Assembly: GCA_013812145.1 (NCBI GenBank)
Contig: JACCTY010000008.1
Span: 1-33,977 of the forward strand
Reading direction: 5' to 3'
DNA from: Geodermatophilaceae bacterium
GTDB lineage: Bacteria > Actinomycetota > Actinomycetes > Mycobacteriales > Geodermatophilaceae
DNA: 33,977 nt
Shown here: positions 5,626 to 26,937 of the stretch, piece by piece
Numbering within the stretch: the stretch's first letter is position 1
Layout of the letters: the number at the start of each line of letters is the position of its first letter
Notes under the pieces: generated by a model
The model's database searches: none
Told to the model about the DNA's origin: nothing
Seen by the model: the letters and a program-made list of their open reading frames with translations, nothing else
Position numbers and translations under genes: made by a program

Positions 5626-6555
5626 CTAGCGGTCGACGAGTTCGGTCGGCAGGGCGATCACGTCGACCATCGCGCCATTGCGCAGGACGGTCAGCGGAAG
5701 GTCGGCGCCGATCGACTCGGTGAACAGCAGCCGCTGCAGGCTCTGCGCGTCGTCGACCGGGCGACGTCCGGCGGTGAGAACGAGGTCGCCGGCCTTGACG
5801 CCTGCGGCATCGGCCGGTGAGCCGGGAACTACCTGGACCACGCGCATCGCCGTACGACGGCGCAATCGCTCGACGAGTGGGGCAGGAACCGGCGAGGGGA
5901 CGCTGACCAGGCCTAGGTAGGCGCGGCGGACCCGGCCGTCGTGCATGAGCGCGGCGATGATGCGGTGCGTCGTGGCGTTGATCGGCACCGCCAAACCGAG
6001 TCCCGCACCGGCGACCGCGGTGTTGATCCCGACCACGTGGCTGCGCGCATCCGCGAGCGCCCCGCCGGAGTTACCGGGATTCAACGCGGCGTCGGTCTGG
6101 ATGACGTCCTCGATCACTCGGGCCGCGCTGCCGCTGCGCACCGGTAGCGACCGGCCCAGCCCGCTCACCACGCCGGCGGTCACCGAGCCGGCCATCCCGA
6201 GCGGGCTGCCGACGGCGACCACGAGTTGGCCGACGCGCAACTGGTCCGCGTCGCCGAGCACGGCCGGACCGGGCGTGGTCGAGCTGCTGCGTACGACGGC
6301 GAGGTCGGACAGCGGGTCGGTGCCGACAACGTCGACCCTGGCCTGGGTGCCGTCGGAGAACAGCGCCGTACCGCTGTACTGGTCACGGACCACATGGGCG
6401 TTCGTCAGCAGGTAGCCGTCGCCGGTGAAAACGACTGCGGACCCGCTCCCACGGCCGATCTGCAGGCTGGCCACGTGCGGGGTGAGTTCTGCCGCCACCC
6501 GGGTGACGACGGCCGAGTAGGCGTCGAGGGCATCGGCGTCGGACGTGGGTTTCAT
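5626..6555 (-). CDS. HtrA/DegP-like serine protease with one PDZ domain
   Basis: The 309-residue protein has a trypsin-like domain with the catalytic triad visible: H54 in LLTNAHVV, D84 in PLSDLAVV, S163 in LNPGNSGGAL. It is followed by a PDZ domain (roughly residues 215-300, with VVQVVPGSPADAAGVKAGD). HtrA enzymes usually degrade misfolded proteins in the envelope. Here no signal peptide or membrane helix precedes the protease domain, so the sequence points to a cytosolic enzyme. ATG 6555 is preferred over 6588 because GGGAA lies just upstream. The gene is divergent from the nitroreductase at 6642. Confidence 0.92.
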   Translation of the reverse strand: MKPTSDADALDAYSAVVTRVAAELTPHVASLQIGRGSGSAVVFTGDGYLLTNAHVVRDQYSGTALFSDGTQARVDVVGTDPLSDLAVVRSSSTTPGPAVLGDADQLRVGQLVVAVGSPLGMAGSVTAGVVSGLGRSLPVRSGSAARVIEDVIQTDAALNPGNSGGALADARSHVVGINTAVAGAGLGLAVPINATTHRIIAALMHDGRVRRAYLGLVSVPSPVPAPLVERLRRRTAMRVVQVVPGSPADAAGVKAGDLVLTAGRRPVDDAQSLQRLLFTESIGADLPLTVLRNGAMVDVIALPTELVDR

Positions 6556-6641
6556 CAGCGTTCCCAGGGTCTGATTACAGTGTTGCAAGGGTAACGCGAA
6601 CCTGCGCCGCAGATTCCCTTCCGTCGCGAGATGATGGCGCG

Positions 6642-7310
6642 GTGACCGAGCCGCCGTTCGTCCCGTACCGGCCGGAGCGCGTCCCGCCCGACGTGGGGCT
6701 GCGGCGAGGCCGGGAGTTTCTCGGTCACATGGACCGGCGTCGCAGCGTGCGGTCGTTCAGCTCGGCGCCGGTTCCGCACGAGGCGATCGAGCTGGCGGTC
6801 AGTGCGGCGAACACGGCACCGTCCGGCGCGCACCAGCAGCCTTGGACGTTCGTGGCCGTCAGCGACCCTGACGTGCGGCATCGCATCCGGCTCGCCGCCG
6901 AGGTCGAGGAACGCCGCTTCTACCGTGAGCGCGACCTGCCGGAGTGGCACGAGGCGCTGGCGATGCTCGGCACCGACGAGCACAAGGATTACCTGGACGT
7001 CGTACCGTGGCTGGTTGTCGTCTTCGCGCAGAAGCAGACCGTGTTGCCGGACGGCCGCCTGCGCAAGAACTACTACGTCAGCGAGAGCGTCGGGTTGGCC
7101 TGCGGGCTGTTCATCGCCGCCCTCCACACGATGGGGCTGGCCACGCTCCCGCACACGCCCAGCCCGATGGGGTTTCTGACTACGCTGCTCGACCGGCCCC
7201 CGACCGAGCGCCCGTACATCCTGTTCCCGGTCGGCTACCCGTCGTCGGACTGCCGCGTCCCGGATCTGGCCCGTAAACCCTTGGCCGAAGCGCTGGTCCT
7301 CCGGTCCTGA
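6642..7310 (+). CDS. Nitroreductase family, iodotyrosine deiodinase-like flavoprotein
   Basis: The 222-residue protein starts with the FMN-binding region MDRRRSVRSFSSAPV and NTAPSGAHQQPW, and ends with TPSPMGFL and FPVGYPSSDCRVPDL. This C-terminus is characteristic of the iodotyrosine deiodinase (IYD) branch of nitroreductases. The active-site lid carries E90, Y94 and K115. These have the same spacing (4 and 21) as the residues that hold the halotyrosine zwitterion in mammalian IYD (mouse E153, Y157, K178). I infer a reductive dehalogenase acting on halotyrosines or a related amino-acid phenol. GTG 6642 is the only sensible start. The 3' end overlaps the convergent YibE/F gene by 76 nt. Confidence 0.88.
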   Translation: MTEPPFVPYRPERVPPDVGLRRGREFLGHMDRRRSVRSFSSAPVPHEAIELAVSAANTAPSGAHQQPWTFVAVSDPDVRHRIRLAAEVEERRFYRERDLPEWHEALAMLGTDEHKDYLDVVPWLVVVFAQKQTVLPDGRLRKNYYVSESVGLACGLFIAALHTMGLATLPHTPSPMGFLTTLLDRPPTERPYILFPVGYPSSDCRVPDLARKPLAEALVLRS

Positions 7311-8557
7311 TCGTCGGGTCCCGGATCACTGCGGCTCACCGACTTCACTAGCAGTACGCCGATGGCCGTCGTCACCGGGACCGCCAGTACCAGGCCGATA
7401 CCGCCGACCATGGTGCGGACGATCTCCTCAGCAATCGCCTCTCCGGTGACGGTGTCCACGAAGGGTCGCTGGTAGATCTCCAGCAGGAGCAGGGCCGGCA
7501 GCGCCGCGCCGGCGTACGCGAAGACGATCGTGTAGACGGTGGACGCGATGTGGTCCCGTCCGATCCGCATCGCGCTCGTGAACAGCTTGCGGGCCGACAG
7601 TCCCGGAGCGAGTTCGTGCAGTTGCCACACCGCAGAAGCCTGCGTGATCGTGACGTCGTTGAGTACGCCGAGGCCGGCGATGATGATGCCGCAGAGCACG
7701 ATCCCGGCGGGGTCGACCTGACCGGTCAGATAGGTGAGCGTGAGGTTCTCCTCGCTGCTCAATCCGGTCAGCCGCGCCGTCGAACCCGCCCACGATCCGA
7801 GTACGGCGATGAGCGCCAACCCGAACAGTGTGCCCGCGAGCGCCGTCGTCGTACGCGCGGAGAACCCGTGCGCGAGATAGAGAACGACGAACATGATCGC
7901 CGCGGAACCGACCAGCCCCACGAGCACCGGCGGCTCGCCGTTGAGCAGTCCGGGCAACATGAACATGACCAGGATGAAAAAGGCGAACGCCAGGCCGACA
8001 AGTGCCGCGGCGCCACGCAGCCGGGCCACCGCAACCACGACGACAGCGAAGACGACCGCGAGCAGGGTGAGTGGCTTCTCGCGAGCGAAATCGGTGAAGC
8101 TGTAGCGCACCGGGAACTCGTCGAAAGCCGGGCTACGGAGCAGCCTCAGCCGGTCTCCCGGTTCGAACCCGGCGAGGAAGATCTCGGCCGGAATTGCGAC
8201 GGCCACGGCGGTGCCCGCGTCGGGGCCCTCCTCGACCTCGGCGACGACGTTGCCGCAGGTGAGCGTCGCGGGGACCGGCGAGCCCGGCCCGAGGCCGGGG
8301 CCCGAGCAGTCGATCGCCTCCACGGTCAGGACAGTCGCGTCGGCGAAGGAGCTGCCGGGGAGGACCTGCTCGACGGCCGCTTGCCGCGCGGCACTTTGCT
8401 GGCTGTCCGGCCAGAGCACGACCAGTCCGGCGAGGGTCGCCAACCCGACCGGGACAAGCACGAATGCCAAGAGGAGGACGGCGCGTCGGCGGTGGGCGAC
8501 CAGCCGTGGATCCGGCGTCGCCGACCCCGGGTCGATGGGCACGTGGGTGTGACTCAC
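7235..8557 (-). CDS. YibE/F family multi-pass membrane protein
   Basis: The 440-residue protein has one N-terminal membrane helix (AVLLLAFVLVPVGLATLAGL) and an extracytoplasmic domain of about 120 residues with two cysteines. About seven further membrane helices follow. The core LTGLSSEENLTLTYL, AGLGVLNDVTITQASAVWQL and MRIGRDHIASTVYTI is the hallmark of YibE/F proteins, whose biochemical role is not established. GTG 8557 begins the recognisable protein; the open frame runs on upstream to 9166 across the divergent acetyltransferase gene and looks non-coding there. The charged C-terminal tail overlaps the convergent nitroreductase gene. Confidence 0.9.
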   Translation of the reverse strand: MSHTHVPIDPGSATPDPRLVAHRRRAVLLLAFVLVPVGLATLAGLVVLWPDSQQSAARQAAVEQVLPGSSFADATVLTVEAIDCSGPGLGPGSPVPATLTCGNVVAEVEEGPDAGTAVAVAIPAEIFLAGFEPGDRLRLLRSPAFDEFPVRYSFTDFAREKPLTLLAVVFAVVVVAVARLRGAAALVGLAFAFFILVMFMLPGLLNGEPPVLVGLVGSAAIMFVVLYLAHGFSARTTTALAGTLFGLALIAVLGSWAGSTARLTGLSSEENLTLTYLTGQVDPAGIVLCGIIIAGLGVLNDVTITQASAVWQLHELAPGLSARKLFTSAMRIGRDHIASTVYTIVFAYAGAALPALLLLEIYQRPFVDTVTGEAIAEEIVRTMVGGIGLVLAVPVTTAIGVLLVKSVSRSDPGPDDQDRRTSASAKGLRARSGTRQSDDG

Positions 8558-8659
8558 GGGTTCGGGCGTCCTCTCCTGTGCTCTGGAGCGGGACAGGTAC
8601 GGCGACGCCCAGCGTGCCTGATCGTTCGCGCCAACCGCGGGAGGTGCGAGGCTGCAGCG

Positions 8660-9217
8660 GTGACGTCCGCTCCTGAACCACCCGAGATCCGTTGGGGGAC
8701 GCTGCTGCTGCGGCCGTGGTCGGCCGGGGACGCCAGCGTCGTACTCACGGCTCTCAACGACCCGGAAATCGCACTGTGGAATGCCTCCGCTGTCCGCACC
8801 GTGGAGGAGGCTACGGATTGGATTGTTCGGCGCGCGGACTGGAGCGCCGGCGACCACGTCTCGCTCGCCGTCGTCGACTCGCTGAGCGGTGAGCTGGTCG
8901 GCTCGGTGTCGTTGCACCAGATCGACCACGAGCAGGGCGACGCGGAGATCGGCTACTGGACCGCGCCGGCCGCTCGCGGTCGCGGCGTCGCCTCGGGAGC
9001 CGTTACTGCCCTGTGCCGGTGGGCGTTTCTGCAGTTGCCCATCGATCGGATCGAGTTGTGCCACGCGGCGGACAATCCGGCATCCGCACGGGTCGCCGCT
9101 AAGGCCGGCTTCACGCAGGAGGGCCGGCTGAGACAGTCCTACCGGTACGGCGATGGGCGCAAGCACGACGAGCTGCTCTGGAGCCTGCTCCGCGGGGACC
9201 TGCCGATAGATTCTTAG
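8660..9217 (+). CDS. GNAT-family N-acetyltransferase (RimJ/RimL-like)
   Basis: The 185-residue cytosolic acetyltransferase opens with TLLLRPWSAGDASVVLTALN. It has AEIGYWTAPAARGRGVASGA, containing the acetyl-CoA pyrophosphate-binding RGRGVA, and ends with the RimJ/L-type NPASARVAAKAGFTQEGRLR. The acceptor (protein N-terminus or small molecule) is unknown. The GTG start at 8660 is preceded by GAGG at 8 nt. The frame is open further upstream, but that part is antisense to the YibE/F gene. The next gene starts 2 nt after the stop but has its own promoter-like element inside this gene. Confidence 0.9.
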   Translation: MTSAPEPPEIRWGTLLLRPWSAGDASVVLTALNDPEIALWNASAVRTVEEATDWIVRRADWSAGDHVSLAVVDSLSGELVGSVSLHQIDHEQGDAEIGYWTAPAARGRGVASGAVTALCRWAFLQLPIDRIELCHAADNPASARVAAKAGFTQEGRLRQSYRYGDGRKHDELLWSLLRGDLPIDS

Positions 9218-11040: not shown

Positions 11041-11799
11041 CTAGCCGCCGACAAAGATCGGCGCCCACGTTCCGGCGGCAATGCTGGCGGCGGTCGCCGC
11101 GCCACACACCGCTAGCGCCGCGGCGATGTACAGCCAGTCACGCTGCCGCAGCACCGACCCGCGGGCGTTCGTCCGGACAATGCCCGAATCGAAGCCGCGC
11201 GCATCCATGGCGGTCGCCAGCCGAGAGCCACGCCGGATCGCGCCGACGAGCAGGGTGAAGATCGCGCCGGCGAAGAGCCGGGCCGCGGCGAAAGGATTGC
11301 GGCCGGCATCGACGCCGCGGGTACGCCGGGCCAGCCGGATCGTGGCGAACTCGGTGATGAGCAGCGGGATGAGCCGCAGCCCGGCGAGCGCGCCGTAGGC
11401 GAACCGGGTCGACACCCGCCAATGCGTCGTCAGCGCGTCGGCCATCCGGACCGGATCCGTGGAAGCAACCAGCAGTACGCCGGGCAGCGCCAGACTGATC
11501 ACCCGGAGGGCAAGTCCGAGGCCGACCAGCGGGCCGGCATCCTCGCTGATCAGGACGTTGACCACCCCCACCATGGTCGCGCCGAGCAGTAACGGCCAGG
11601 TCCGCCGGAACAGTTCGATCGGCGAGCGGATACCCGCCGCCGGCAACATCGCCAGCTCGATGAGGAGCACCAGCGTCGGCGTGACGATGTCCAGGGTGGT
11701 CAGCAGCGTGACGCTGACGATCCCGAGCGCCACGAGCTGGGCTACCGGGTTGATCGCCGACAGCCGGACCTGCGCGGCCGGGCGCAGCACCAGACTCAT
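11041..11799 (-). CDS. ykoC: ECF transporter T component (YkoC/EcfT)
   Basis: The 252-residue membrane protein, with about five to six helices, is the scaffold that couples the ATPase to the substrate-binding S component. The coupling motif AMDARGF is present, and the sequence around TDPVRMADALTTHW is typical of EcfT/CbiQ proteins. ATG 11799 overlaps the stop of the ATPase gene (ATGA), which shows translational coupling. It is the third gene of the TPP-riboswitch-controlled ykoE-ykoD-ykoC operon and converges on the gamma-glutamyltransferase-like gene with 57 nt between. Confidence 0.9.
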   Translation of the reverse strand: MSLVLRPAAQVRLSAINPVAQLVALGIVSVTLLTTLDIVTPTLVLLIELAMLPAAGIRSPIELFRRTWPLLLGATMVGVVNVLISEDAGPLVGLGLALRVISLALPGVLLVASTDPVRMADALTTHWRVSTRFAYGALAGLRLIPLLITEFATIRLARRTRGVDAGRNPFAAARLFAGAIFTLLVGAIRRGSRLATAMDARGFDSGIVRTNARGSVLRQRDWLYIAAALAVCGAATAASIAAGTWAPIFVGG

Positions 11800-13223
11800 G
11801 CCGGTACTTCCGTGCGGTCCGCCCCGAGAGCCAGCTCGTCGTCGGCGAGCAGGTTCACCAGGTCGCGATCGTGCGTGATCAGGCACAAGGCCCGCCCGGC
11901 CGTGCGCAGCTCGGCGAGCAACCGCACCACCTCCCGCCAGGTGCCTGCGTCCTGCCCGAACGTCGGCTCGTCCAGGACCAGGACCTGTGGAGATGTCGCC
12001 AGTGCCGTCGCGACGGACAGCCGCCGCTGCTGACCTCCGGACAGCGTGAACGGGTTCGCCTCGGCGTACGCCGTCAGCCCGAGCCGCTCGAGCAACCCGA
12101 ACGCGACCTCGCGGGCCCGCCCGGCCAGCACACCGGACCGCAGCGGCCCCAAGGCCAGCTCGTCACCAAGCCGCTGGGTGAGAAATTGGTGCTCGGGGTT
12201 CTGGAACACCGTCCCGATCCGGGTCACCAGCTCTGCGGCGCTCCACCGCGACGGCGCGCATCGACCCCGCCGTACGCCGCTGGCAAGTGCCGCCGACGCC
12301 CGGACGGTGCCGACACCCGGCGCGCGGAGCCCGGCAAGAAGCAGACCGAGGGTGGATTTGCCGCTGCCGTTCGGGCCGGTGACTGCCGTCGTCCGGCCGC
12401 CGACGAGGTCGACCGAGGTGGGGACCAGCGCGGGCGCGACCGAACGCGGGTAGCCGAACCCGGCCCCGGCGGTGGACAGCAGCGCCGATCCCGAACCGTC
12501 GCTGCGGGCAAACGTCAGCCCGGTCGCGCGCGAAACCGGCCGCCAACTGCGGGGATGCTCGACCAGGCCGCCGCCGGGCAGTATCTCGACCACCCGGTCG
12601 ACCAGCGGCAGCCACGGCGTGGCGTCATGATCGACGAGCAGCAGCGTGACGGACCGATCGGCAACCGCATGGCCGACGGCCGCGCGCACGAGCGCAGCGC
12701 CGGCTGGGTCCAGTTGCGACGTGGGTTCGTCCAACAGCAGCAGGCCCGGCTCGCGCACCAGGGCACCTGCCAGCACCAGTCGCTGCTGCTCTCCGCCGGA
12801 CAGCTCGTGGGTCTGCCGGTCCCGCCCGTAGCCGAACCCCACGTGGTCCAGCGCGGCATCGACCCGCGGCCAGATCTCCACCGGCGGTACGCCGGCGTTC
12901 TCCAGGCCGAACGCGACGTCGTCGCCCGCCAGCGTCATCACGAGCTGGCTGTCGGGATCCTGTGCCAGCAAGCCGAGCCGGTCTCGGGCGGCGCGAGGAG
13001 CAGCGCCGTCGACGGTGAGCTCACCGGTGAGTTCCACCGCGTCGGAGTCGAGCAGGCCGCCGACGGCGTACAGGAGGGTGGACTTGCCGGATCCGGAGCT
13101 GCCGGTGACGAGTACCCGCTCGCCCGGCTCGACCACCAGGTCGAGGGCGGACAGCGCCCAGGCCTGGCGGGTGGCGTAGCGCAGGCCGAACCCACGCGCG
13201 ACGACCCGACCAGGCGTCGGCAC
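11796..13223 (-). CDS. ykoD: ECF transporter ATPase with two fused ABC domains (YkoD)
   Basis: The 475-residue protein carries two ABC ATPase domains in one chain. Domain 1 has Walker A GSSGSGKST, signature LSGGEQQR and Walker B LLLLDEPTSQLD; domain 2 has GPNGSGKST, LSGGQQRR and VLVLDEPTFGQD. Both appear catalytically complete. Fused ATPases of this type power the YkoEDC ECF importer for hydroxymethylpyrimidine/thiamine precursors. GTG 13223 lies 9 nt after the ykoE stop. The frame is open further upstream inside ykoE, but that stretch is the shadow of ykoE. The exact start is moderately uncertain because the ribosome site is weak. Confidence 0.92.
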   Translation of the reverse strand: MPTPGRVVARGFGLRYATRQAWALSALDLVVEPGERVLVTGSSGSGKSTLLYAVGGLLDSDAVELTGELTVDGAAPRAARDRLGLLAQDPDSQLVMTLAGDDVAFGLENAGVPPVEIWPRVDAALDHVGFGYGRDRQTHELSGGEQQRLVLAGALVREPGLLLLDEPTSQLDPAGAALVRAAVGHAVADRSVTLLLVDHDATPWLPLVDRVVEILPGGGLVEHPRSWRPVSRATGLTFARSDGSGSALLSTAGAGFGYPRSVAPALVPTSVDLVGGRTTAVTGPNGSGKSTLGLLLAGLRAPGVGTVRASAALASGVRRGRCAPSRWSAAELVTRIGTVFQNPEHQFLTQRLGDELALGPLRSGVLAGRAREVAFGLLERLGLTAYAEANPFTLSGGQQRRLSVATALATSPQVLVLDEPTFGQDAGTWREVVRLLAELRTAGRALCLITHDRDLVNLLADDELALGADRTEVPA

Positions 13224-13231
13224 GGGGACGG

Positions 13232-13825
13232 TCAGACCCGCCGCTGCCCGACCGGAAAGGACGACAGCGCGCCGCTCGCGGCCAGCGCGCGGACGAGCAA
13301 CCACCCGCCGACCCCGGCGAGCAGCGCGCTCGAAAGGACGGTTAGCGCCCCATAGGCGACCCGGTCGCCCGTGCTGAACTCGGGGTAGTACAGCGACAAG
13401 TCCATGATCGTGGTGGACAGCCCGGCCGTTGCAGCGGCGAGGAGCGCGGCACCGAGCCCGAAGCGGCGGTACCGGGTCAACGCGAACCCGATCTCCGCGC
13501 CGAGGCCTTGGACGAGGCCGTACACGACGATGATTCCGCCGAACGGCGATCCGAGCAGCAGCGAGACTGTTGCGGCCAGGGTCGAGGCGAACAGCGCGGC
13601 GCCGGGCTTGCGGATCACCAGCCCGGCGATCACACCCGGCATCAGGAAAACACCGTTCAGCACGGCGAACGCCGCCGGGATGAACGTCAGCGCCGGTTGG
13701 GCGACGCCGTAGAAGAGGTTCCAGGCCCAGAAGACGACGCCGAACGCGACGCCCAGGATTGCGGTCACGACGATGTCGACGGTGCGCCACCGGGTCAGTT
13801 GCACACCGGTCGTGGTAGATGGCAT
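13232..13825 (-). CDS. ykoE: ECF transporter S component for HMP/thiamine (YkoE)
   Basis: The 197-residue membrane protein has about five to six helices and is the substrate-binding subunit. TVDIVVTAILGVAFGVVFWA, FLMPGVIAGLVIRKPGAA and SPFGGIIVVYGLVQGLGAE are characteristic of YkoE. With YkoD and YkoC it imports hydroxymethylpyrimidine or thiamine. The start is clear: GGGAGG ends 6 nt before ATG 13825. A TPP riboswitch lies upstream, so expression should fall when thiamine diphosphate is plentiful. Confidence 0.93.
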   Translation of the reverse strand: MPSTTTGVQLTRWRTVDIVVTAILGVAFGVVFWAWNLFYGVAQPALTFIPAAFAVLNGVFLMPGVIAGLVIRKPGAALFASTLAATVSLLLGSPFGGIIVVYGLVQGLGAEIGFALTRYRRFGLGAALLAAATAGLSTTIMDLSLYYPEFSTGDRVAYGALTVLSSALLAGVGGWLLVRALAASGALSSFPVGQRRV

Positions 13826-13873
13826 TGCGGACCTCCCAGTCCTGATCGGACGGGGCGAGACAGCAGCGAATCC

Positions 13874-13957
<84 letters not shown>

Positions 13958-14013: not shown

Positions 14014-14430
14014 TCAGGTGACCGACCCGCGCGGAACCACCCACTGAGTCGGTTGCCCCGTGACCTCCGCGATCAGGTCGAAGTCGCCGTCGTAGTGCAT
14101 GACAGTTACTCGATGTCGCAGCGCCACGGCCGCGACCAGAAGATCGGGCAGCGCCGCCGCCCGATGATGCCCGCGGTCGGCAAGCTCGGCCTGAGTTTGC
14201 ATCGCCACGCGGAAGTCCTCGTCGGCGGTGTCCAGCCATTCCAGACCGGACCGGCGTTGCCGCATGTCAGGGACATCGCCAGCACGAGCGGCAAAAGTCA
14301 ACTCCAGCTCAAGGATGCCGCAGGTAGCGACAAGTCCGCGCTCGATCAGAGGACCGAGAACGTGTGCAACCTCGGACCGACGAAGCCGTGCGGTCGCGCT
14401 GGTGTCCGCGAGGTACGGCGCTATCGCCAC
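14014..14430 (-). CDS. vapC: PIN-domain toxin (VapC)
   Basis: This 138-residue PIN-domain ribonuclease has the acidic metal-binding residues at D9 (YLADTSA), E41 (GILELEL), D96 (LPDLLVAA) and D114/D116 (YDGDFD). VapC toxins cleave specific RNAs, often tRNA or the rRNA sarcin-ricin loop, when released from antitoxin. The GTG start at 14430 lies within the end of the upstream vapB, with a 10-nt overlap, as usual for type II toxin-antitoxin pairs. All catalytic residues are present, so it appears active. Confidence 0.92.
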   Translation of the reverse strand: MAIAPYLADTSATARLRRSEVAHVLGPLIERGLVATCGILELELTFAARAGDVPDMRQRRSGLEWLDTADEDFRVAMQTQAELADRGHHRAAALPDLLVAAVALRHRVTVMHYDGDFDLIAEVTGQPTQWVVPRGSVT

Positions 14431-16669: not shown

Positions 16670-17779
16670 ATGCGATCCGGGCGGATCACGATCGCCGATG
16701 TTGCCCGGGCCGCCGGGGTCTCCAAGGGTGCGGTGTCCTTTGCGCTGAACGAGCGACCCGGTGTCGCCGTAGACACCCGAAAGCGGATCCTGCAGACGGC
16801 AGCGGACCTGGGCTGGGCCCCGAATCAGCGAGCCCGAGCGCTGTCGACCTCCCGCGCCCTCGCCTTCGGACTGGTTGTGGCCCGCCCCCCGGAGATCCTC
16901 GCCGAGGACGCCTTTTTCCCCGCATTCATCGCCGGGATCGAGGCTGAGCTGGTCGGCAGCGAATACGCGCTCGTGCTCCAGGTCGTGACGCCCGATCAAG
17001 AGCACAACGGCTATCGCCGGCTGGTACGTGACGGTCGCGTCGACGGCGTCCTTCTCACTGATGTCCGAACCGACGACAGCCGCATCCCGCTGTTGCAGTC
17101 ACTGTCGCTGCCGGCGGTCACGCTCAACCGAGCCCAACCGACATCGCCGTTCCCGGCGGTCAGTATCGACGACAAACCCGCCGTCATAGCCGCCGTGCGG
17201 CACTTGATCGATCTCGGCCACCGCGACATCGCCCACGTCGCCGGACCCAGTGGATACGTGCACGTCGTGGCCCGTCGTACGGCGTGGGCCGAGACGCTGG
17301 CGGCGGCGGGGCTCCCACCAGGATCGCTGGTCCAGGGAGACTTCTCGGCGCGCGGCGGGGCCAGCGCGACTCGATGGCTGCTCGACGGGCCACATCGCCC
17401 GACCGCGATCGTCTATGCCAGCGACATCATGGCCATCGCCGGTCTGGCCGCAGCCCGGGAGCGAGGGGTGGATGTGCCCAGGGACCTGTCCGTCGTCGGA
17501 TTTGATGACACACCGCTGGCCGCGCACGTTCACCCGGCGCTGACCACTGCCCGCGCAGACGTCGTCGGATGGGGACGCGCCGCAACCAGGGCGCTGGCCA
17601 GGTTGGCCTCCGGACGCGCGCAGCCCGATGTCGACTGCCCCCCGGCTGAACTGATCCTGCGTCATTCCACCGGCCCACCACCCCGCCGCCGGCGCGCAGC
17701 GGCCAAGCGCACGGCAGCCGAACGCCCGACACGCACCGGGCTGTCAGACCGTCCACAGAAGCAAGGGAGTCCAGCATGA
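16670..17779 (+). CDS. LacI-family transcriptional repressor
   Basis: The 369-residue regulator has an N-terminal helix-turn-helix (ITIADVARAAGVSKGAVSFA, residues 6-25) and a hinge. A periplasmic-binding-protein-like effector domain follows, with DGVLLTDVR, LIDLGHRDIAHVAG and DLSVVGFDDTPLA. The C-terminus is a basic tail. The effector is presumably a sugar imported by the adjoining ABC system. AGGAGG lies 5 nt before ATG 16670. The stop overlaps the ATG of the sugar-binding-protein gene (ATGA), so regulator and transporter are co-translated, which is unusual but makes autoregulation direct. Confidence 0.93.
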   Translation: MRSGRITIADVARAAGVSKGAVSFALNERPGVAVDTRKRILQTAADLGWAPNQRARALSTSRALAFGLVVARPPEILAEDAFFPAFIAGIEAELVGSEYALVLQVVTPDQEHNGYRRLVRDGRVDGVLLTDVRTDDSRIPLLQSLSLPAVTLNRAQPTSPFPAVSIDDKPAVIAAVRHLIDLGHRDIAHVAGPSGYVHVVARRTAWAETLAAAGLPPGSLVQGDFSARGGASATRWLLDGPHRPTAIVYASDIMAIAGLAAARERGVDVPRDLSVVGFDDTPLAAHVHPALTTARADVVGWGRAATRALARLASGRAQPDVDCPPAELILRHSTGPPPRRRRAAAKRTAAERPTRTGLSDRPQKQGSPA

Positions 17780-19065
17780 AACGCAAAGCGCTATCCACCC
17801 TGGCCGTGATCACGCTCGGTGTAGCGCTGTCCGCCTGTGGCGGCGACAGCGGGACCAGCCCCGACGAGGCAGCGACGGTCACCGGACCCATCGACATCTG
17901 GTACTCCAACAACCCCGAGGAGGTTGCCTGGGGTGAGGCGATGGTCGAGGCCTGGAACGCGGAGAATCCCGACGCCGAGGTGAGCGGGCAGGAGATCCCC
18001 GCTGGGACGTCGTCGGAAGAGGTCATCACCGCCGCCATCACGGCGGGCAACGCGCCGTGCCTCATCTACAACACGGCGCCGGCCGCCGTACCGCAGTTCC
18101 AGAAGCAGGGCGGGCTGGTCAATCTCAGTGACTTCCCCGACGGCGCCGAATACATCGAGACCCGCACGGGCGACCGATCCGCGCAGTACCAGTCGACCGA
18201 CGGCGGCTACTACCAGATGCCATGGAAGACCAACCCGTCGATGATCTTCTACAACAAGGACGTTTTCACCGCCGCCGGGCTCGACGCCGAGAATCCGCCG
18301 CTGGCCACCTACGACGAGTTCCTCGCCACCTCCCAGACACTGGTCGACAGCGGCGGTGTCCAGGCCGCCATCTGGCCCGCGGCGAGCAGCGAGTTCTTCC
18401 AGGCCTGGTTCGACTTCTACCCGCTGTTCATCGCCGCCTCCGGAGGCCAGCAGCTGGTCGAGGACGGCGAGAGCCAGTTCAACAACGAGGCCGGTCAGCA
18501 GGTCGCGGACTTCTGGGCGCAGCTGTACGAGCGGGGCTTGACGCCCAACGAGAACTACGAGGGCGACGCCTTCGCCGATCAGGCGGCGGCCATGTCCATC
18601 GTCGGTCCGTGGGCTATCAAGGTCTACGCCGACGCCGTGAACTGGGGAGTCGTCCCGGTGCCCACACCCGACGGTGCGGCTCCCGAGGAGGTCAGCACCT
18701 TCAGCGACGAGAAGTCGATCGGCCTGTTCTCGGCGTGTGAGAACCGTGGCACGGCCTGGGAGTTCCTCAAGTTCACCACCAGCGAGGACGCCGACGGCCA
18801 GCTGCTCGAGTTGACCGGGCAGATGCCGATGCGCGACGACCTCACGACGACGTACGCGGACTACTTCGCGGCGAACCCGGACTACGAGGTCTTCGCCGAC
18901 CAGGCCTCCCGCACGGTCGAGGTGCCCAACGTGCCCAACTCGATCGAGATCTGGCAGACCTTCCGCGACGCTTACTCCCAGGCGGTGATCTTCGGGGATG
19001 CCGACGTCGCGAGCACGTTGGACGACACCGCCGAGGAAGTCAACACCCTGGCGACAGACGACTAG
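17776..19065 (+). CDS. ABC sugar transporter, substrate-binding lipoprotein
   Basis: The 429-residue extracellular binding protein has a lipoprotein signal (MKRKALSTLAVITLGVALSA followed by Cys21, lipobox LSAC). The fold is that of cluster-1 sugar-binding proteins: IDIWYSNNPEE at the start, MPWKTNPSMIFYNKDVF, AAMSIVGPWAI and FLKFTTS. These bind oligosaccharides and deliver them to two permeases. It is followed by the two permease genes with very short gaps; no ATPase gene is present, so a shared MsiK-type ATPase encoded elsewhere is the likely energiser. Confidence 0.94.
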   Translation: MKRKALSTLAVITLGVALSACGGDSGTSPDEAATVTGPIDIWYSNNPEEVAWGEAMVEAWNAENPDAEVSGQEIPAGTSSEEVITAAITAGNAPCLIYNTAPAAVPQFQKQGGLVNLSDFPDGAEYIETRTGDRSAQYQSTDGGYYQMPWKTNPSMIFYNKDVFTAAGLDAENPPLATYDEFLATSQTLVDSGGVQAAIWPAASSEFFQAWFDFYPLFIAASGGQQLVEDGESQFNNEAGQQVADFWAQLYERGLTPNENYEGDAFADQAAAMSIVGPWAIKVYADAVNWGVVPVPTPDGAAPEEVSTFSDEKSIGLFSACENRGTAWEFLKFTTSEDADGQLLELTGQMPMRDDLTTTYADYFAANPDYEVFADQASRTVEVPNVPNSIEIWQTFRDAYSQAVIFGDADVASTLDDTAEEVNTLATDD

Positions 19066-19076
19066 CGGGTCTGCGA

Positions 19077-20000
19077 ATGTCCGCCACCTCGACCGCTGAC
19101 CGACCGGCTCCGCCCCGCTCGCGCTCGAGCCAGCGGGCGGGGCGGTCCCGGATCGGACCGCTGTTCATCGCCCCGTACGTCCTCTTCCTGGTCGCGATCT
19201 TCGCCTACCCGGTGGGCCTTGCGGTCTACATGTCCTTCCACGACTACTTCTTCGCTGCCCCGGGGGCGATCGTGGACAGGCCGTTCACCGGCCTGGACAA
19301 CTACGCCGAGGCCTTGCAGGACTCCGCGGTGCTGCAGTCGTTCGGCAACGTCGCGATCTTCCTGGTCATCAATGTCCCGCTGACCGTGGCGCTGGCGCTC
19401 GTCTTGGCCACCGCCCTCAACGCGGCTATCCCGTTCCGCACCTTCTTCCGGGTCAGTTACTACGTTCCGTACATCACGGCGAGCGTGGCCGTTGTGGGCG
19501 TCTGGCTGTTCCTGTTCAACGGGGCTGGGCTGATCAACAACCTCCTGGGGCCGCTGGCACCGGCCCCTTCGTGGTTCGTGAACTCGACCCTGGCGATGCC
19601 GCTGATCGCCATCTACGTGAGCTGGAAGCAGCTCGGGTTCTTCGTCCTGCTCTACTTGGCCGCGCTGCAGAACGTGCCGAAGGAACTCTACGAAGCGGCC
19701 TCGATTGACGGCGCGGGTCGGCTGCGGCAGTTCATGTCGGTGACCGTGCCCGGCGTCCGCCCGGCAACATTCCTGGTCACGCTGCTGGCCACCATCACCG
19801 GCGCCAACCTGTTCACCGAGCCCTACCTGCTGACCGGTGGCGGTGGGCCCAACGGCGCATCGGCTTCGCCCGTGCTGGTGATGTACCAGGAGGGCATCCA
19901 GCAGGGGAACGCCGGGTACGCCGCCGCGATCGGCATCATCCTGATCGTCTCCGTACTCGTGCTGGCCGGTGTCCAACGACTCGTGCTCGGGAGGAAGTGA
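19077..20000 (+). CDS. ABC sugar transporter permease (MalF-type)
   Basis: The 307-residue inner-membrane permease has six predicted helices, the first after a basic cytosolic N-terminus (GPLFIAPYVLFLVAIFAY). The EAA loop that contacts the ATPase is visible as ELYEAASIDGAGRLRQF. ATG 19077 lies 11 nt after the preceding stop. It pairs with the downstream MalG-type permease. Confidence 0.94.
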   Translation: MSATSTADRPAPPRSRSSQRAGRSRIGPLFIAPYVLFLVAIFAYPVGLAVYMSFHDYFFAAPGAIVDRPFTGLDNYAEALQDSAVLQSFGNVAIFLVINVPLTVALALVLATALNAAIPFRTFFRVSYYVPYITASVAVVGVWLFLFNGAGLINNLLGPLAPAPSWFVNSTLAMPLIAIYVSWKQLGFFVLLYLAALQNVPKELYEAASIDGAGRLRQFMSVTVPGVRPATFLVTLLATITGANLFTEPYLLTGGGGPNGASASPVLVMYQEGIQQGNAGYAAAIGIILIVSVLVLAGVQRLVLGRK

Positions 20001-20001
20001 C

Positions 20002-20910
20002 ATGGCCAGCGCCGCTGTCGAGGCACCCTCGACCGCCCCGGCGGAGGAGTCCGAGGAACACCGGACCCCACCTGCCGCCCGGCCGGAGCGGAGTTGGGTC
20101 CGCCTCGTCCTGCTTGCGGTAGGGGCCTTCGCCTTCCTCTTCCCCTTCTACTACATGATCATCGGCTCGCTGCAGCGCGACCCGGAGCCCGGACCGGGCG
20201 GAGCCTTCCCGAACCCCGCCAACATCACCTTGGACAACTACGAGAGCATCAACAGCTCCATCTCCCTGCTGCGGTCGCTGGTCAACTCCGGCGTCTTCAC
20301 CGGTGGCGTGCTGCTGGGGACGCTGGTGTTCGGACTGCTCGCCGGGTACGCGCTGGCCGTCCTGGAGTGGCGCGGACGCGGTGCCGTGTTCGCGTCCCTG
20401 CTGCTCGTGCAGATCATCCCGTTCCAGCTGCTGATGATTCCGCTGTACGTGATGATCGTGAGGAGCTACGGCCTTGCCGACAGCTACCTCGGCATGATCG
20501 TGCCCTTCGCGATCAACTCCGTCGCGGTGCTCATCTTCCGGCAGTTCTTCCTGGCGCTGCCTCGGGACCTGTTCGAGGCAGCCCGGATCGACGGCGCGAG
20601 CGAGCTGCAGATTCTGTGGCGGATCGCTATTCCGCTGGCCAAGCCGGCGATCCTGACGGCAGTCATCTTGACGTTCATCGGGCCGTGGAACGAATTCCTC
20701 TGGCCGTTCCTCGTGACCAAGGAAGCGGACCTGCAGCCGTTGGCCGTATCGCTGGCCAACTACATCAGCAACCTGGCCGGCCGGGCGGCCAACCCGTTCG
20801 GGGCCATCCTGGCCGGCGCCTGCGTTCTGGCGGCTCCCGCGGTCGCGGTGTTCCTGGCGTTCCAGCGGCACTTCATCAGCAGTGACCTCGGATCCGGGGT
20901 GAAGGGCTGA
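20002..20910 (+). CDS. ABC sugar transporter permease (MalG-type)
   Basis: The 302-residue permease has six helices and the EAA loop DLFEAARIDGASELQILWRI. The first helix follows ARPERSWVRLVLLAVGAFAF. The ATG is 1 nt after the previous stop, and GGAGG within that gene's last codons serves as the ribosome site. The partner is the permease at 19077. Confidence 0.94.
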   Translation: MASAAVEAPSTAPAEESEEHRTPPAARPERSWVRLVLLAVGAFAFLFPFYYMIIGSLQRDPEPGPGGAFPNPANITLDNYESINSSISLLRSLVNSGVFTGGVLLGTLVFGLLAGYALAVLEWRGRGAVFASLLLVQIIPFQLLMIPLYVMIVRSYGLADSYLGMIVPFAINSVAVLIFRQFFLALPRDLFEAARIDGASELQILWRIAIPLAKPAILTAVILTFIGPWNEFLWPFLVTKEADLQPLAVSLANYISNLAGRAANPFGAILAGACVLAAPAVAVFLAFQRHFISSDLGSGVKG

Positions 20911-21987
20911 GTGTCAGCGACGCAGCGCACCACCTTCCCGTACACGCTGACGCGCGCGGGTGTCGTCATGTCGCCCGAGCCCGGCGACGACCTCGAGGCC
21001 GAAGGCGTGCTCAACCCGGCCAGCGGCCGCAGCACGGACGGCGAGCTCTACCTGCTGCCGAGACTGGTGGCCCACGGCAACGTGTCGAGGGTCGGCCTGG
21101 CCAAGGTGCGCATCGAGGACGGCGTACCCGTGGGCGTGCAACGCGAGGGAGTGGTGCTCTCGCCCGACCAGGGCTGGGAGCGCGGCTACGGGCATGCCGG
21201 CGTCGAGGATCCCCGAACCACGTGGGTACCGGGGCTGGGTCTGCACCTGATGACCTACGTCGCCTATGGTCCGCTCGGACCACGAATAGCGCTGGCTGTG
21301 TCGGCGGATCTGCGGAAGTGGCGGCGACTCGGGCCGGTGCATTTCGGCTACCAGCCGGACCTGGGCACCGACCTCAACCTCTTCCCGAACAAGGACGCCG
21401 TCTTCTTCCCCGTCCCTGTTCCGGGGCCGGACGGGGAGCCGTCCTACGCGATGCTGCACCGGCCCATGTGGAATCTGTCCTGGGTGCGACCCGGAGCAGG
21501 CGTCCATCTCCCGGCCGATCTCGCCGACGCCCGGCCCGGGATCTGGGTCTCTTTCGTCGACGCGGCGGAGGTCGAGGCCGACATCCGCATGCTGGTGCGA
21601 ATGGGTGAGCACCGGTTAGTGTCACTACCCCAATATCAGTGGGAGAGCCTGAAGATCGGCGCGGGACCGCCGCCGGTCCGGGTCGAGGAGGGCTGGTTGC
21701 TGTTGCATCACGGCGTCGACGGTGAACTCGACGAGGGGTTCACTCTTCAGCCGCGGGCCTCGTACGCCGCCGGTGCGATGCTCCTCGACGGTGACGACGT
21801 GACGCGGGTCCTCGGGCGCAGCGAGACGCCGCTGCTTGCGCCGGAGACCATCGGCGAGCGCATCGGGACGGTGCCCAACGTCGTGTTCCCCACGGCGATT
21901 GAGGAGATCGACGGCATCCGCTACGTCTTCTACGGCATGGCCGACACACGGATCGGTGTGGCCCGGCTGGATCGGATCTGGCCGTGA
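20911..21987 (+). CDS. GH130-family glycoside phosphorylase/hydrolase
   Basis: The 358-residue cytosolic protein has a five-bladed beta-propeller pattern with the GH130 signatures GHAGVEDPR (the aspartate is the likely general acid), NKDAVFFP, YAMLHRPMW and VPNVVFPTAIEEIDG. GH130 enzymes mostly phosphorolyse beta-mannosidic linkages, though one branch hydrolyses beta-1,2-mannosides. The lysine and the HRP motif resemble the phosphate-binding residues of phosphorylases, so phosphorolysis is favoured without certainty. GTG 20911 directly follows the permease stop. The gene overlaps or abuts the secreted protein gene. The likely role is breakdown of the imported oligosaccharide. Confidence 0.88.
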   Translation: MSATQRTTFPYTLTRAGVVMSPEPGDDLEAEGVLNPASGRSTDGELYLLPRLVAHGNVSRVGLAKVRIEDGVPVGVQREGVVLSPDQGWERGYGHAGVEDPRTTWVPGLGLHLMTYVAYGPLGPRIALAVSADLRKWRRLGPVHFGYQPDLGTDLNLFPNKDAVFFPVPVPGPDGEPSYAMLHRPMWNLSWVRPGAGVHLPADLADARPGIWVSFVDAAEVEADIRMLVRMGEHRLVSLPQYQWESLKIGAGPPPVRVEEGWLLLHHGVDGELDEGFTLQPRASYAAGAMLLDGDDVTRVLGRSETPLLAPETIGERIGTVPNVVFPTAIEEIDGIRYVFYGMADTRIGVARLDRIWP

Positions 21988-22034
21988 GTAAACAACAGGA
22001 ACTCGTCATATCGGCAACAAGGTGGAGGTGCGCG

Positions 22035-24101
22035 ATGCGTTCGACCCGAGTACTCATCCGGATCAGGGTGGGAGTCGCGATCGCTGCGGCGGCGATGCTC
22101 CTCCCCTTGGTCACCGCCGCCGGGCCGGCTGCCGTCAGCGCGGCAGCGGCGCCGGCCCCAGCGCAGCTCACGAACCTGGCGCACCTGGACTTTCTGGGTG
22201 ACGAGGTCACGCCACCTGAGCAGGCCAACCACACGACGTACCACGTGGCCGGCGATCCCGGGCTGGGAGTGCTGTGGACGTACGCCGACGCAAATGACGA
22301 CGGAACGTTCACGCGGGTCGGTGGCGGTGAGTACGACCCCGTCACCAACACCTGGGGGCAGGGAGCCTATAACGCGGACGACATCTCGCGGGCCGCGATC
22401 GTGTACCTGCGGCACTGGCAGCAGTTCGGTTCGGACTCCAGCCGGGACACAGCGTTCGACCTGCTGCGCGGGCTCACCTACATGCAGACCGCCAGCGGCC
22501 CGAATGCCGGCAACGTCGTGTTGTGGATGCAGCCCGATGGCACCCTGAACCCGAGCGCGGAGCCGCCGGAACTGCCCGATCCCTCCGACAGCGGCCCGTC
22601 GTACTGGCTGGCCCGCACGGTCTGGGCACTGGGCGAGGGTTATGCAGCGTTCCAGGTGGAGGATCCGGCCTTTGCCGGCTTCCTGAAGGAGCGGATGGAA
22701 CTCGCTCTGGACGCGGTTGACCGCCAGGTGTTGACCCGCTACGGCACGTATCAGACCGTGGACGGTTTGCAGCGACCGGCCTGGCTCATCACCGACGGCG
22801 CCGACGCCTCCGCGGAGGCTGTCTACGGACTGGCGGCGTACGTCGAGGCCACGGGTGACCCAAGAGCCCGCGCCGACCTGCGGAAACTCAGCCAGGGTTT
22901 GGCCCTGATGACCGCCGGAGACGATCGGACCTGGCCGTTCGGCGCGATCCAGCCCTGGGCGCTCTCCCGTTCGGTCTGGCATTCCTGGGGGGACCAGATG
23001 AGCGGCGCGCTGGCCCGCTCCAGCGCCGTACTGGACGACAGGTCGTTCCTGGCCACGGCGATACGGCAGAACGCGGGCTTCACTCCGCACCTGCTGGCCG
23101 GCAGCGGCCCGGATCACTCGTGGCAGCCGGGGCCGACCAATCGCAGCCAGATCGCTTACGGCGCTGACGCCACGCTGCAGAATCTGCTTGCCGTCGCCCA
23201 GGAGACCGGGGAGGCGTCCTTCCGCGATCTGGCGGGGTTTGCCGCGTCGTGGTACTTCGGCAACAACCCGGCCGGCGAACCGATGTATGACCCGCAGACC
23301 GGCGTGACGTTCGACGGTGTGGAGATCACCGGGGACATCAACCGGAACTCCGGCGCCGAGTCGGCGATACACGGTCAGCTGTCAATGCTGGCATTGGACG
23401 CACACCCGGGCGTTGCCATCGCAGCCGCGGTCTCGCAACAGCGCAGCCGAGTGTCGTGGCAGCTGCAGGAGGCCGAGGACGGACGGCTGTCCAACGCGGC
23501 TCAGGTCGTGACGCCGGAGTCGGCGTGGACCGGCGAGGCCGAATGGAGCGGCGGAAGCTACGTCGAACTCGGGCAATCGGGGCGGGTGCTACAGACCGTG
23601 AAGCTGCCTGCTGCCGGGCGCTATCTGCTGATGCCGGTGTTCAACCGGCAACAGGTCCCGCTGATGACGGTGGGAACCCGCAGCCTCGTCGGACGGTTCC
23701 CGGCGGGTGTGGTGTACCAAGGCGGGGCGGGGCCGCAGGGCGTGTCTGCTGCGCCTGGCTATCTCGATGTCGGGACCAGCCAGCTGATGGAGGCGGTGAC
23801 GGCGGGTTCTCACGTCATGCTGACGCAGTACGTCGGTGACGGCACGCCTGCGCAACTCGACGCCGTACTGGTCCAGCCCGAGGTGGAGTGGCTCATCGTC
23901 AGCGGAGAGGGTCACGGCCGCGCTCTGCTGCACAGCTTCGCCGTGGACCAGCGCTCGGTGACCGTCACGGTTCCGGGTGACCGCAGGGCGTTGGTGTCGG
24001 TCTACAACGACCGGGGCCGGCTCGCGAGCAGAACATGGACCTCCGGTGCGACGGTCACGGTGACGGTGGAGCCAGGAGGGTTCACCATCGTCCAGCGCTA
24101 G
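22035..24101 (+). CDS. Secreted six-hairpin (alpha/alpha toroid) glycosidase-like protein
   Basis: The 688-residue protein has a long signal peptide (basic start, hydrophobic core to about residue 35). The catalytic-type helical domain (about 45-465) carries ADDISRAAIVYLRHWQ, SYWLARTVWALGEGYAAF, WYFGNNPAGEPMYDPQTG and NRNSGAESAIHGQLSMLALD. The GNNP and NSGAE phrases recall GH9 and related six-hairpin enzymes, but I cannot assign a CAZy family. A C-terminal beta-rich domain (about 480-688) may bind carbohydrate. ATG 22035 is chosen for the GGAGG 6 nt upstream. GTG 21984 overlaps the preceding stop and would spoil the signal peptide. It probably cuts or trims the polysaccharide outside the cell. 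Confidence 0.82.
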   Translation: MRSTRVLIRIRVGVAIAAAAMLLPLVTAAGPAAVSAAAAPAPAQLTNLAHLDFLGDEVTPPEQANHTTYHVAGDPGLGVLWTYADANDDGTFTRVGGGEYDPVTNTWGQGAYNADDISRAAIVYLRHWQQFGSDSSRDTAFDLLRGLTYMQTASGPNAGNVVLWMQPDGTLNPSAEPPELPDPSDSGPSYWLARTVWALGEGYAAFQVEDPAFAGFLKERMELALDAVDRQVLTRYGTYQTVDGLQRPAWLITDGADASAEAVYGLAAYVEATGDPRARADLRKLSQGLALMTAGDDRTWPFGAIQPWALSRSVWHSWGDQMSGALARSSAVLDDRSFLATAIRQNAGFTPHLLAGSGPDHSWQPGPTNRSQIAYGADATLQNLLAVAQETGEASFRDLAGFAASWYFGNNPAGEPMYDPQTGVTFDGVEITGDINRNSGAESAIHGQLSMLALDAHPGVAIAAAVSQQRSRVSWQLQEAEDGRLSNAAQVVTPESAWTGEAEWSGGSYVELGQSGRVLQTVKLPAAGRYLLMPVFNRQQVPLMTVGTRSLVGRFPAGVVYQGGAGPQGVSAAPGYLDVGTSQLMEAVTAGSHVMLTQYVGDGTPAQLDAVLVQPEVEWLIVSGEGHGRALLHSFAVDQRSVTVTVPGDRRALVSVYNDRGRLASRTWTSGATVTVTVEPGGFTIVQR

Positions 24102-24111: not shown

Positions 24112-24924
24112 CTAGGACATCCGGATGATCTGCCCGGTGATGAACCGGGCTCGCTCGGACGTGAGGAGCAGCACCACCTCTGCGACGTCCGCGGGTTCGG
24201 CAACGCGCCCGATCGGGCCGGCGTCGGCAGCGGCGGCCCGCACCGAGTCGGTGATCCAGCCGGTGTCCGTCACGGGCGGGTACACCATGTTGGCGGTGAC
24301 GCCGTACGCCGCCAGCTCGGCAGCGGCGGACATCGTGTAGTTCTCCTGCGCCGCCTTGGCCGCGCCGTAGGAGACCTCCTCGGGAAAACCGCCAGGTCCG
24401 CCGGAGGTGAGTCCGACGATGCGGCCCCAGGTTGCGTTCCTGCCGATGTGCCGGCGGGCGAACTCCGCGATCAGCAACGCGGGCGCCCTGGCGTCGACGG
24501 CGAACTGCCGGTCGTGGCTGGCCGCGTCCACGGCGGCCTGCCGACGGCCGAACCGATCCCGCCGCGCTGGCAGGAAAGTGTTGGCCAGCCAGCCGCTGGC
24601 GTTGTTAATGAGGATGTCCACCGGCCCGAAAACCGACTCGGCGCGGTCGAAGAGTGCCGGCACGGTCGACGGGTCGGCGAGATCGGCCTCCCTCGCCTCG
24701 ACCCGACCGCCGGCGAGGCGTATCCCCGCGACGACGTCGTCCGCCGATTGGGCTCGCAGCCGCGCGTACTCCGCGGGAAGAGCGGGGTCGGCGTGCTCAC
24801 CGGGCAGGCGCAGAAACGTCGCCAGCACGGCCGCGCCGTCAGCCGCCAGGGCTTCGGCGATGGCGGCACCGATGCCCTGGTTGGCTCCGGTCACGAGGGC
24901 CACCCGGCCGCTGAGACGGGGCAC
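24112..24924 (-). CDS. Short-chain dehydrogenase (3-oxoacyl-ACP reductase-like)
   Basis: The 270-residue SDR has TGANQGIG, NNAS in ILINNASGWL, catalytic serine in GLTSGG, Y-x3-K in SYGAAK, and a C-terminal FITGQIIRM. It has about 25 extra residues after the second strand (LRLPGEHADPALPAEYARLR) compared with short FabG proteins. The GTG lies 4 nt after the stop of the CFA-synthase-type gene, so it is the last gene of a four-gene lipid operon. A role in reducing or oxidising the modified acyl chain is inferred from context only. Confidence 0.88.
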   Translation of the reverse strand: MPRLSGRVALVTGANQGIGAAIAEALAADGAAVLATFLRLPGEHADPALPAEYARLRAQSADDVVAGIRLAGGRVEAREADLADPSTVPALFDRAESVFGPVDILINNASGWLANTFLPARRDRFGRRQAAVDAASHDRQFAVDARAPALLIAEFARRHIGRNATWGRIVGLTSGGPGGFPEEVSYGAAKAAQENYTMSAAAELAAYGVTANMVYPPVTDTGWITDSVRAAAADAGPIGRVAEPADVAEVVLLLTSERARFITGQIIRMS

Positions 24925-24928
24925 AGTG

Positions 24929-26218: not shown

Positions 26219-26937
26219 TGGACGCCCTCCTGGGGCACGTGCGGGGGACGGTGGACAACGGGTAACCGGCGCAGCCAGAGCTTGACGCCTTGATAGCGAA
26301 TGAGGGCACTGACCAGCAGCGGCATGAACGGCTGCCGAACCGCAGCCCTGAGGACGGCGGACAGCGTCGCGGGCCGGGCGGTCCCTCGCAGGGTCGCGGT
26401 GAACGGTGTCGTGTCGCCCTGGCGCAGCGCCATCGTGACCGACAACCGCTCACCCGGCGGTGAGAAGCGCATCAGGTAGCGGCCGTCGACGGTGAGGAAC
26501 GGCGAGACGTAGAACTGCTTGTCCGTCTCGGCCCGGCCGCTGTCGTCCGGCCGCAGCAGGTACGCGTGCCGTTCGCCGTAGGTGTTGTGTACTTCCGCGA
26601 TCAGGCAGGCGAGGTCGCCGTCGGCGCCGTAGCACCAGTGGACGCTGATCGGGTTGAACACGTATCCCGCGACGCGGGCATTGGCCAGCATCAGCACCCG
26701 CCCCCCGGTGACGTCGACGCCGTACGGCGCGAGGAACTTGTCGATGTTGTCCCGGATCGGGAGGGCGGCATCGCCAAAGTGGTCGCGGCCCTCGAACCGA
26801 GCCAACCACCGCAGCCCATGCGGCAGTTGCGGTAAGTCGTCCAGGTCGACCAGCCACATGTGGACGCGGTAGGAAAAGGAGTTGTCGACCGGGCCGCGGC
26901 GGGTATGCGCCACCGTAGCGTCGTAGAGGGTCGTCAC
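26215..26937 (-). CDS. DUF1365 family protein
   Basis: The 240-residue protein has the DUF1365 signature: YDATVAHTRRGPVDNSFSY, HMWLVDLDDLP, YVFNPISVHWCY, EVHNTYGERHAYLL and KQFYVSPF. The function is not established; the family is almost always found between an FAD oxidoreductase and a CFA-synthase-type methyltransferase, as here, suggesting a joint role in acyl-chain modification. The GTG start overlaps the upstream stop (GTGA), and its own stop overlaps the next ATG, so the three genes are tightly coupled. A basic C-terminal stretch may aid membrane contact. Confidence 0.92.
   Translation of the reverse strand: MTTLYDATVAHTRRGPVDNSFSYRVHMWLVDLDDLPQLPHGLRWLARFEGRDHFGDAALPIRDNIDKFLAPYGVDVTGGRVLMLANARVAGYVFNPISVHWCYGADGDLACLIAEVHNTYGERHAYLLRPDDSGRAETDKQFYVSPFLTVDGRYLMRFSPPGERLSVTMALRQGDTTPFTATLRGTARPATLSAVLRAAVRQPFMPLLVSALIRYQGVKLWLRRLPVVHRPPHVPQEGVQ

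Follow-up and report, generated by a model that had tools for sequence, protein, structure and literature searches.

A predicted iodotyrosine deiodinase-type flavoprotein gene on a Geodermatophilaceae contig and its relatives in Actinomycetota

The window analyzed here, a stretch of 33,977 nucleotides, is one contig (C119) of a draft genome of 3.08 Mb that is 95% complete. Its forward strand carries an open reading frame at 6642..7310, the one picked out in the first-pass annotation, that starts with GTG and encodes 222 amino acids. GC content at the three codon positions is 0.72, 0.48 and 0.90, a coding-like pattern as expected for a real gene. Sequence, tree, profile and fold comparisons place its predicted product within the nitroreductase superfamily, among flavoproteins of the type of iodotyrosine deiodinase (IYD), an enzyme known chiefly from the thyroid, where it salvages iodide.

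Upstream and divergent lies a gene for an HtrA-type trypsin-like/PDZ protease (5626..6588, minus strand). The downstream gene is convergent, encodes a YibE/F-like membrane protein (7235..9166, minus strand) and overlaps the IYD frame by 76 nt. A YibE/F-like gene also adjoins IYD in four loci of close relatives (L004, L006, L007 and L008), where it is likewise followed by acetyltransferase and gamma-glutamyltranspeptidase genes; the protease gene adjoins IYD in L008 and not in the other three. None of the neighbors in the window points to a pathway. A pyridoxamine-oxidase-type flavoprotein (PF12900; 4836-5513, plus strand) is encoded nearby and recurs near IYD in the same four loci, lying directly upstream and in the same direction in L006. 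We also compared 25 YibE/F loci from other genomes of the family (L139-L163) as empty sites. Searches for eight other window genes gave no match within the stretches covered there, so insertion and loss of IYD are indistinguishable in this comparison.

The top entries of a phmmer search against all PDB chains, at 246.9 bits, were 5ko7 (FMN), 5ko8 (FMN plus iodotyrosine) and 5krd (FMN plus 2-iodophenol), all of them, by their titles, structures of Haliscomenobacter hydrossis IYD. Mouse and human IYD followed at 170.5-175.3 bits (mouse 175.3), and 6pz0, an IYD that we take to be from Thermotoga neapolitana, scored 76.5 bits; entries without an IYD label reached at most 58.6 bits. With a profile of 19 relatives, the scores were 311.8 for the H. 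hydrossis IYD, 241-246 for the mammalian enzymes, 110.8 for 6pz0 and 76.3 for the next nitroreductase. In a three-way alignment, the window protein was identical to H. hydrossis IYD at 114 of 217 positions and to mouse IYD at 96 of 214, while the latter two shared 97 of 214. The C-terminal part, which had been said to fit the IYD branch, does so: 'FPVGYPSSDCRVPDL' aligned to 'LPVGYPSRDATVPDL' of mouse IYD in the HMMER alignment.

Domain models gave a less specific picture. Pfam labels the frame as Nitroreductase (PF00881), with a sub-threshold match to TM1586, and there was no IYD model among the NCBIfam matches. Five NCBIfam matches were of equivalog type and all fell far below their cut-offs. 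They include two proteins that have the superfamily fold in common with the window protein: BluB (5,6-dimethylbenzimidazole synthase), which scored 54.2 bits against a cut-off of 150, and the C-terminal domain of the F420:glutamate ligase FbiB, which scored 47.8 bits against 249.55. Both were rejected as identities for the gene.

The residues expected to bind the substrate could be read directly from the translation. E90 (codon 6909..6911), Y94 (6921..6923) and K115 (6984..6986), all on the plus strand, are spaced by +4 and +21 as in IYD, and they fall in the same columns as the corresponding residues of Haliscomenobacter and mouse IYD with no intervening gap in the HMMER alignment, which bears out the spacing claimed in the first-pass annotation. 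T172 (7155..7157, plus strand) aligns with T173 of the Haliscomenobacter enzyme and with human T239, the Thr239 named in the PDB title of 5yak. We take it to be the IYD threonine at flavin N5, where Ser or Thr is expected. Counting along the HMMER alignment with the published numbering, we equate E90, Y94, K115 and T172 with human residues 157, 161, 182 and 239. All four belong to the 74 columns in which the proteins of the window, of H. hydrossis and of mouse agree. The codon stretch 33-64 (6738..6833, plus strand) contains RR33-34 and PSGAH60-64, which are identical in mouse and Haliscomenobacter IYD and are presumably FMN contacts. Residues 91-120 (6912..7001, plus strand), which hold Y94 and K115, align to the H. 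hydrossis enzyme without gaps and probably form the IYD substrate lid.

An AlphaFold2 model computed from a 19-row alignment had a pLDDT of 89.2 and is consistent with an IYD fold with a lid. Its minimum of 69 lies in block 101-110, which together with block 91-100 is among the lowest-scoring parts of the model and belongs to the expected lid region. When the model was compared with known folds, the top 12 of the 50 PDB entries listed were all IYDs, with Z scores of 23.2-27.2, and the next entry had a Z of 18.6.

The closest characterized counterpart is the IYD of H. hydrossis, an organism from a different phylum. The two proteins align nearly end to end, both have the E-Y-K triad and the HTPSPM flavin loop, and the iodotyrosine complex matches the model with a Z of 27.0 over 218 residues. 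They differ at P170, where the H. hydrossis protein has a threonine; other relatives have T, P, V or I in this column. The idea that P170 distinguishes the window's lineage was dropped, as distant relatives have it too. Mammalian IYD/DEHAL1 (3gfd, 4ttc; Z 27.2) retains the triad, T172 and the VGYPS..VPDL tail. It differs by an extra N-terminal membrane segment, the bacterial frame beginning at the start of the soluble domain, and it serves the recycling of thyroid iodide. The 192-residue 6pz0 protein (Z 23.8 over 184 residues) is shorter and more distant, at 31% identity; the protein of the window is of the full-length type seen in H. hydrossis.

We then calculated a quick tree of 82 rows, comprising the window, 48 of 80 close-relative loci, a further locus of the window's family (L088), 20 of 21 loci from an even draw of the phylum, the H. 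hydrossis and mouse IYDs and, as outgroup, ten nitroreductase-family matches from relatives. All 72 IYD rows, including both characterized enzymes, lie on one side of a long branch with an SH-aLRT support of 96, so that the window protein does not cluster with ordinary nitroreductases. The exact position of mouse IYD is unsure, given the tree program's warning that the long branches of mouse IYD and the outgroup meet. The window groups with L004-L008 (support 99) inside a larger 17-row group (97) of Saccharopolyspora, Amycolatopsis, Kibdelosporangium, Kutzneria, Lentzea, Kribbella, Mangrovihabitans and a Streptomyces-named record (L009). L088, the IYD of another genome of the window's family, is placed far from the window, and from this we infer that the family's two copies are not plain sisters by vertical descent.

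To describe the distribution of the gene we used an even draw of 396 Actinomycetota genomes, calling IYD at E 1e-30. It was present in 22 of them, the window's genome counted, and the E-Y-K triad was found in all 21 non-self genes. T172 was conserved in 20 of these 21, that is, in every one where the position was readable, and in 85 of 85 non-self loci read, four of which are second copies of the same genes. The triad was found in none of 24 weaker nitroreductase-family matches from the window's own genome and near relatives, eight of which have at least one triad column unaligned; the 24 are what the comparison returned from 26 loci fetched, L002 and L094 being the two that it did not return. 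Judged from these alignments, the triad match is more than chance. A scan of contigs for relatives gave 513 stretches encoding one at E 1e-3, from which the best 80 were kept (61-84% identity). Among these best 80 of 513, 75 come from records named Actinomycetota, and the closest matches of the window are mostly metagenome-assembled Geodermatophilaceae. All 80 have the triad, which is weaker evidence since one peptide pattern of that search contains K115 and the set was thus partly selected for it.

Nearer to the window, the gene separates clearly from its background and is unevenly spread. In the genomes of near relatives, the weakest IYD scored 202 bits and the next match 50 bits. Six of 59 such genomes, the window's own counted, have IYD: every one of the four from the window's genus, plus single genomes from two further genera. 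Among 24 genomes of the same order outside the window's family none has it. This patchy distribution, taken together with the tree, suggests horizontal spread of IYD.

We looked in the same 396 genomes for co-occurring tyrosine and halogen functions. HPPD (TIGR01263) exceeded its cut-off in 81 of them: 14 of the 22 genomes with IYD versus 67 of the 374 others (Fisher p 6.5e-6). When stratified over the nine families that have genomes both with and without IYD, 13 co-occurrences were observed versus 11.7 expected (P 0.28). The strata left out were f1, f68 and f69, in which the IYD genome is the sole one listed, and f26, in which no HPPD is over the cut-off; family, IYD and HPPD were tabulated by hand, the family being seen for 393 of the 396 genomes. 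Since the association is not seen within families, the co-occurrence may simply follow lineage, and we claim no functional link. The window's genome was counted as HPPD-negative, but it contains a 37-residue C-terminal piece of HPPD that ends exactly at the end of a 5610-base contig, so the gene is probably present and cut by the contig end. The match to hmgA (TIGR01015) in the same genome was weak, at 61.8 bits versus a cut-off of 510.75. At E 0.001, the tryptophan halogenase family PF04820 matched 197 of the 396 genomes, 172 of them above the 21-bit cut-off. The majority of the matches listed are short, low-scoring and reminiscent of FAD-binding regions in general, and E. coli, one of the control genomes, was also positive. 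With matches this unspecific and only four candidates scored per genome, we draw no association with halogenases. In the window's genome, there was no PF04820 match among the four of 28 candidates scored.

The surroundings of the gene in its relatives were examined in two ways. For regulators, all open frames of the 80 close-relative loci were searched with HMMs made from recurrent neighbors. A LysR gene directly upstream of and divergent from IYD was found in 15 of the 80 (seven Amycolatopsis, five Lentzea, and Kribbella, Kibdelosporangium and one Streptomyces-named record). A divergent Lrp/AsnC gene, of a family whose members typically sense amino acids, was found beside IYD in 16 (nine Streptomyces, three Nonomuraea, two Streptosporangium, and Kitasatospora and Thermoactinospora). 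This gives 31 of the 80 with one or the other. Neither type lies beside IYD in the window's own clade, nor in the approximately 1.0-1.5 kb upstream of the gene in 22 more distant loci (L113-L133 and L088). The LysR of L012, searched for elsewhere in the window's genome without a positive control, gave no match there.

For neighbors in general, 86 loci (the window and L004-L088) were passed through a simple high-GC gene caller, and 71 of them joined the IYD cluster; 12 loci, all within the 80, were left out of this census as no IYD gene was picked, while the regulator count uses all 80. By genus labels, which are coarse for metagenome-assembled genomes, LysR is the most widely kept neighbor (five labels), followed by three neighbors with four labels each: AsnC in the caller's picks, the TauE-type exporter of a Nanopelagicales-type group, and YibE/F, kept in the clade of the window. 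A Pfam scan of the neighbors found no halogenase and no tyrosine-pathway gene. Five Streptomyces-type loci carry, three genes upstream of IYD, a gene resembling FAD-dependent aromatic hydroxylases, and one Streptosporangium locus has a LysE exporter nearby. Other scanned neighbors resemble dihydrolipoamide dehydrogenase, 2-oxoacid:ferredoxin oxidoreductase, MFS transporters, thioesterase, NAD synthase, GntR regulators and helicases, and several had no match. In the Nanopelagicales-type loci L019, L020, L022, L023 and L046, IYD is divergent from an FAD-linked glycolate/lactate-oxidase-like gene with the TauE-type exporter adjoining. In Mangrovihabitans endophyticus, the gene immediately upstream of IYD (L065:3589-5904) encodes a heme peroxidase, matched by PF00141 in two stretches; of all neighbors seen, its product alone might in principle be capable of halogenating tyrosine.

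Sequence, predicted fold and active-site residues all agree with the proposed identity as an IYD-like flavoprotein, and the gene very probably encodes a bacterial IYD, a predicted halotyrosine dehalogenase. As to its chemistry, the protein is best read as an enzyme that would dehalogenate halotyrosine. In the IYD family, FMN sits between the two subunits of a domain-swapped dimer. The window protein would accordingly be a soluble FMN enzyme that reduces 3-halotyrosines (I, Br, Cl) to tyrosine and free halide. By analogy with the family mechanism, E90, Y94 and K115 would, together with the flavin, hold the charged ends of the halotyrosine and so bring the lid (approximately 91-120) to close, T172 would hydrogen-bond flavin N5 and favor one-electron steps, and two such steps would expel the halide. 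The likely benefit would be the removal or use of halotyrosines that stem from protein halogenated by peroxidases or from soil metabolites carrying halogens, and the tyrosine produced could then enter ordinary catabolism. The Lrp/AsnC genes beside IYD in 16 of the 80 relatives speak for this reading. Counting against it are the lack of a halogenase among the scanned neighbors and among the four candidates scored in the window's genome, the lack of a linked regulator in the window's clade and in the 22 more distant loci, and the HPPD link that is not seen within families.

Two other readings deserve weighing against this one. The gene might encode an ordinary nitroreductase, NAD(P)H oxidase or flavin reductase that has the triad by chance, as its PF00881 label and the lack of an IYD model among the NCBIfam matches would allow. 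The gaps in the tree, the profile scores and the fold comparison contradict this, the five equivalog-type matches stay far below their cut-offs, and the triad is found in none of the 24 weaker matches compared, so we consider it extremely improbable. An enzyme with the IYD fold and a tyrosine-binding site could alternatively have a different aromatic amino acid or a phenol as its substrate, such as nitrotyrosine or a phenolic compound from plants or soil, and turn over halotyrosine incidentally. Such a substrate would suit the aromatic hydroxylase-like gene of the Streptomyces-type loci, the patchy distribution and the scarcity of halogen or tyrosine chemistry, both among the scanned neighbors, the L065 peroxidase aside, and among the halogenase candidates scored in the window's genome. 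It sits poorly with the complete triad throughout the phylum draw and with the constancy of T172, a position at which a change reportedly turns IYD towards nitroreductase activity. We therefore regard the second reading as improbable as well, if less so than the first.

Returning to halotyrosine dehalogenation, the recurrent regulators allow a further, tentative proposal that we think unlikely to hold. The IYDs of Actinomycetota may be stand-alone inducible units for the dehalogenation of halo-amino acids, in which a divergent LysR (Amycolatopsis, Lentzea, Kribbella, Kibdelosporangium) or Lrp/AsnC regulator (Streptomyces, Streptosporangiaceae) senses the natural substrate. Belonging to the LysR tree group, the clade of the window would have lost its linked regulator. 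If so, the regulators would be a direct route to what bacterial IYDs are for, and a compound that induces a LysR- or AsnC-linked IYD promoter in Amycolatopsis or Streptomyces should point to the natural substrate. The lead worth following lies in these divergent regulators, each tied to certain clades, of relatives that can be cultured.

The first-pass annotation had also called a reductive dehalogenase in a soil-type actinomycete functionally interesting. The identity as a bacterial IYD stands, and the surprise is smaller than was thought, because a bacterial IYD-iodotyrosine complex (5ko8) is already in the PDB and 513 stretches, of which the best 80 were examined, encode relatives at E 1e-3. 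As bacterial IYDs are known and an iodotyrosine complex has been solved, the window gene is a well-supported further member of a known family and not a new kind. It is a clean actinobacterial IYD to which Pfam and NCBIfam give only nitroreductase or sub-threshold labels. Iyd is named as a subgroup of the superfamily in the available text of PMC6017928. Apart from that mention and titles in reference lists, the available parts of PMC3930498, PMC7538488, PMC6017928, PMC11055893 and PMC8913905 do not discuss bacterial IYD. A literature search whose scope left out most subscription journals returned no title or abstract on bacterial IYD, from which nothing follows about what is in print.

The remainder of the window holds several further features. 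A PIN-domain frame of the VapC toxin type (14014-14430, minus strand) scored 34.2 bits versus an NCBIfam cut-off of 80. A CbiQ-like permease and a double-ATPase ECF transporter protein are encoded at 11041-13892 (minus strand). The long ECF frame is probably over-extended, since its first ~230 residues are arginine-rich and without an ATPase match; another coding-like frame lies there at 13232-13825. A 772-residue transketolase/pyruvate dehydrogenase E1-like protein (31205-33523, plus strand) stays far below the cut-off of every NCBIfam model matched, reaching 192.4 of 859.9 bits for aceE. At 16670-24101 (plus strand), genes for a LacI regulator, a solute-binding protein, a permease (19969-20910) and a GH130 mannoside-phosphorylase-like enzyme form what looks like a cluster for mannoside uptake and breakdown; it includes a second coding-like frame (19077-20000) and, after the GH130-like gene, a 705-residue frame (21984-24101) with no Pfam or NCBIfam match. 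Finally, an SDR, a cyclopropane-fatty-acid-synthase-type methyltransferase, a DUF1365 protein and an FAD amine-oxidase-like protein are encoded in a row at 24112-29111 (minus strand), a probable lipid-modifying operon.
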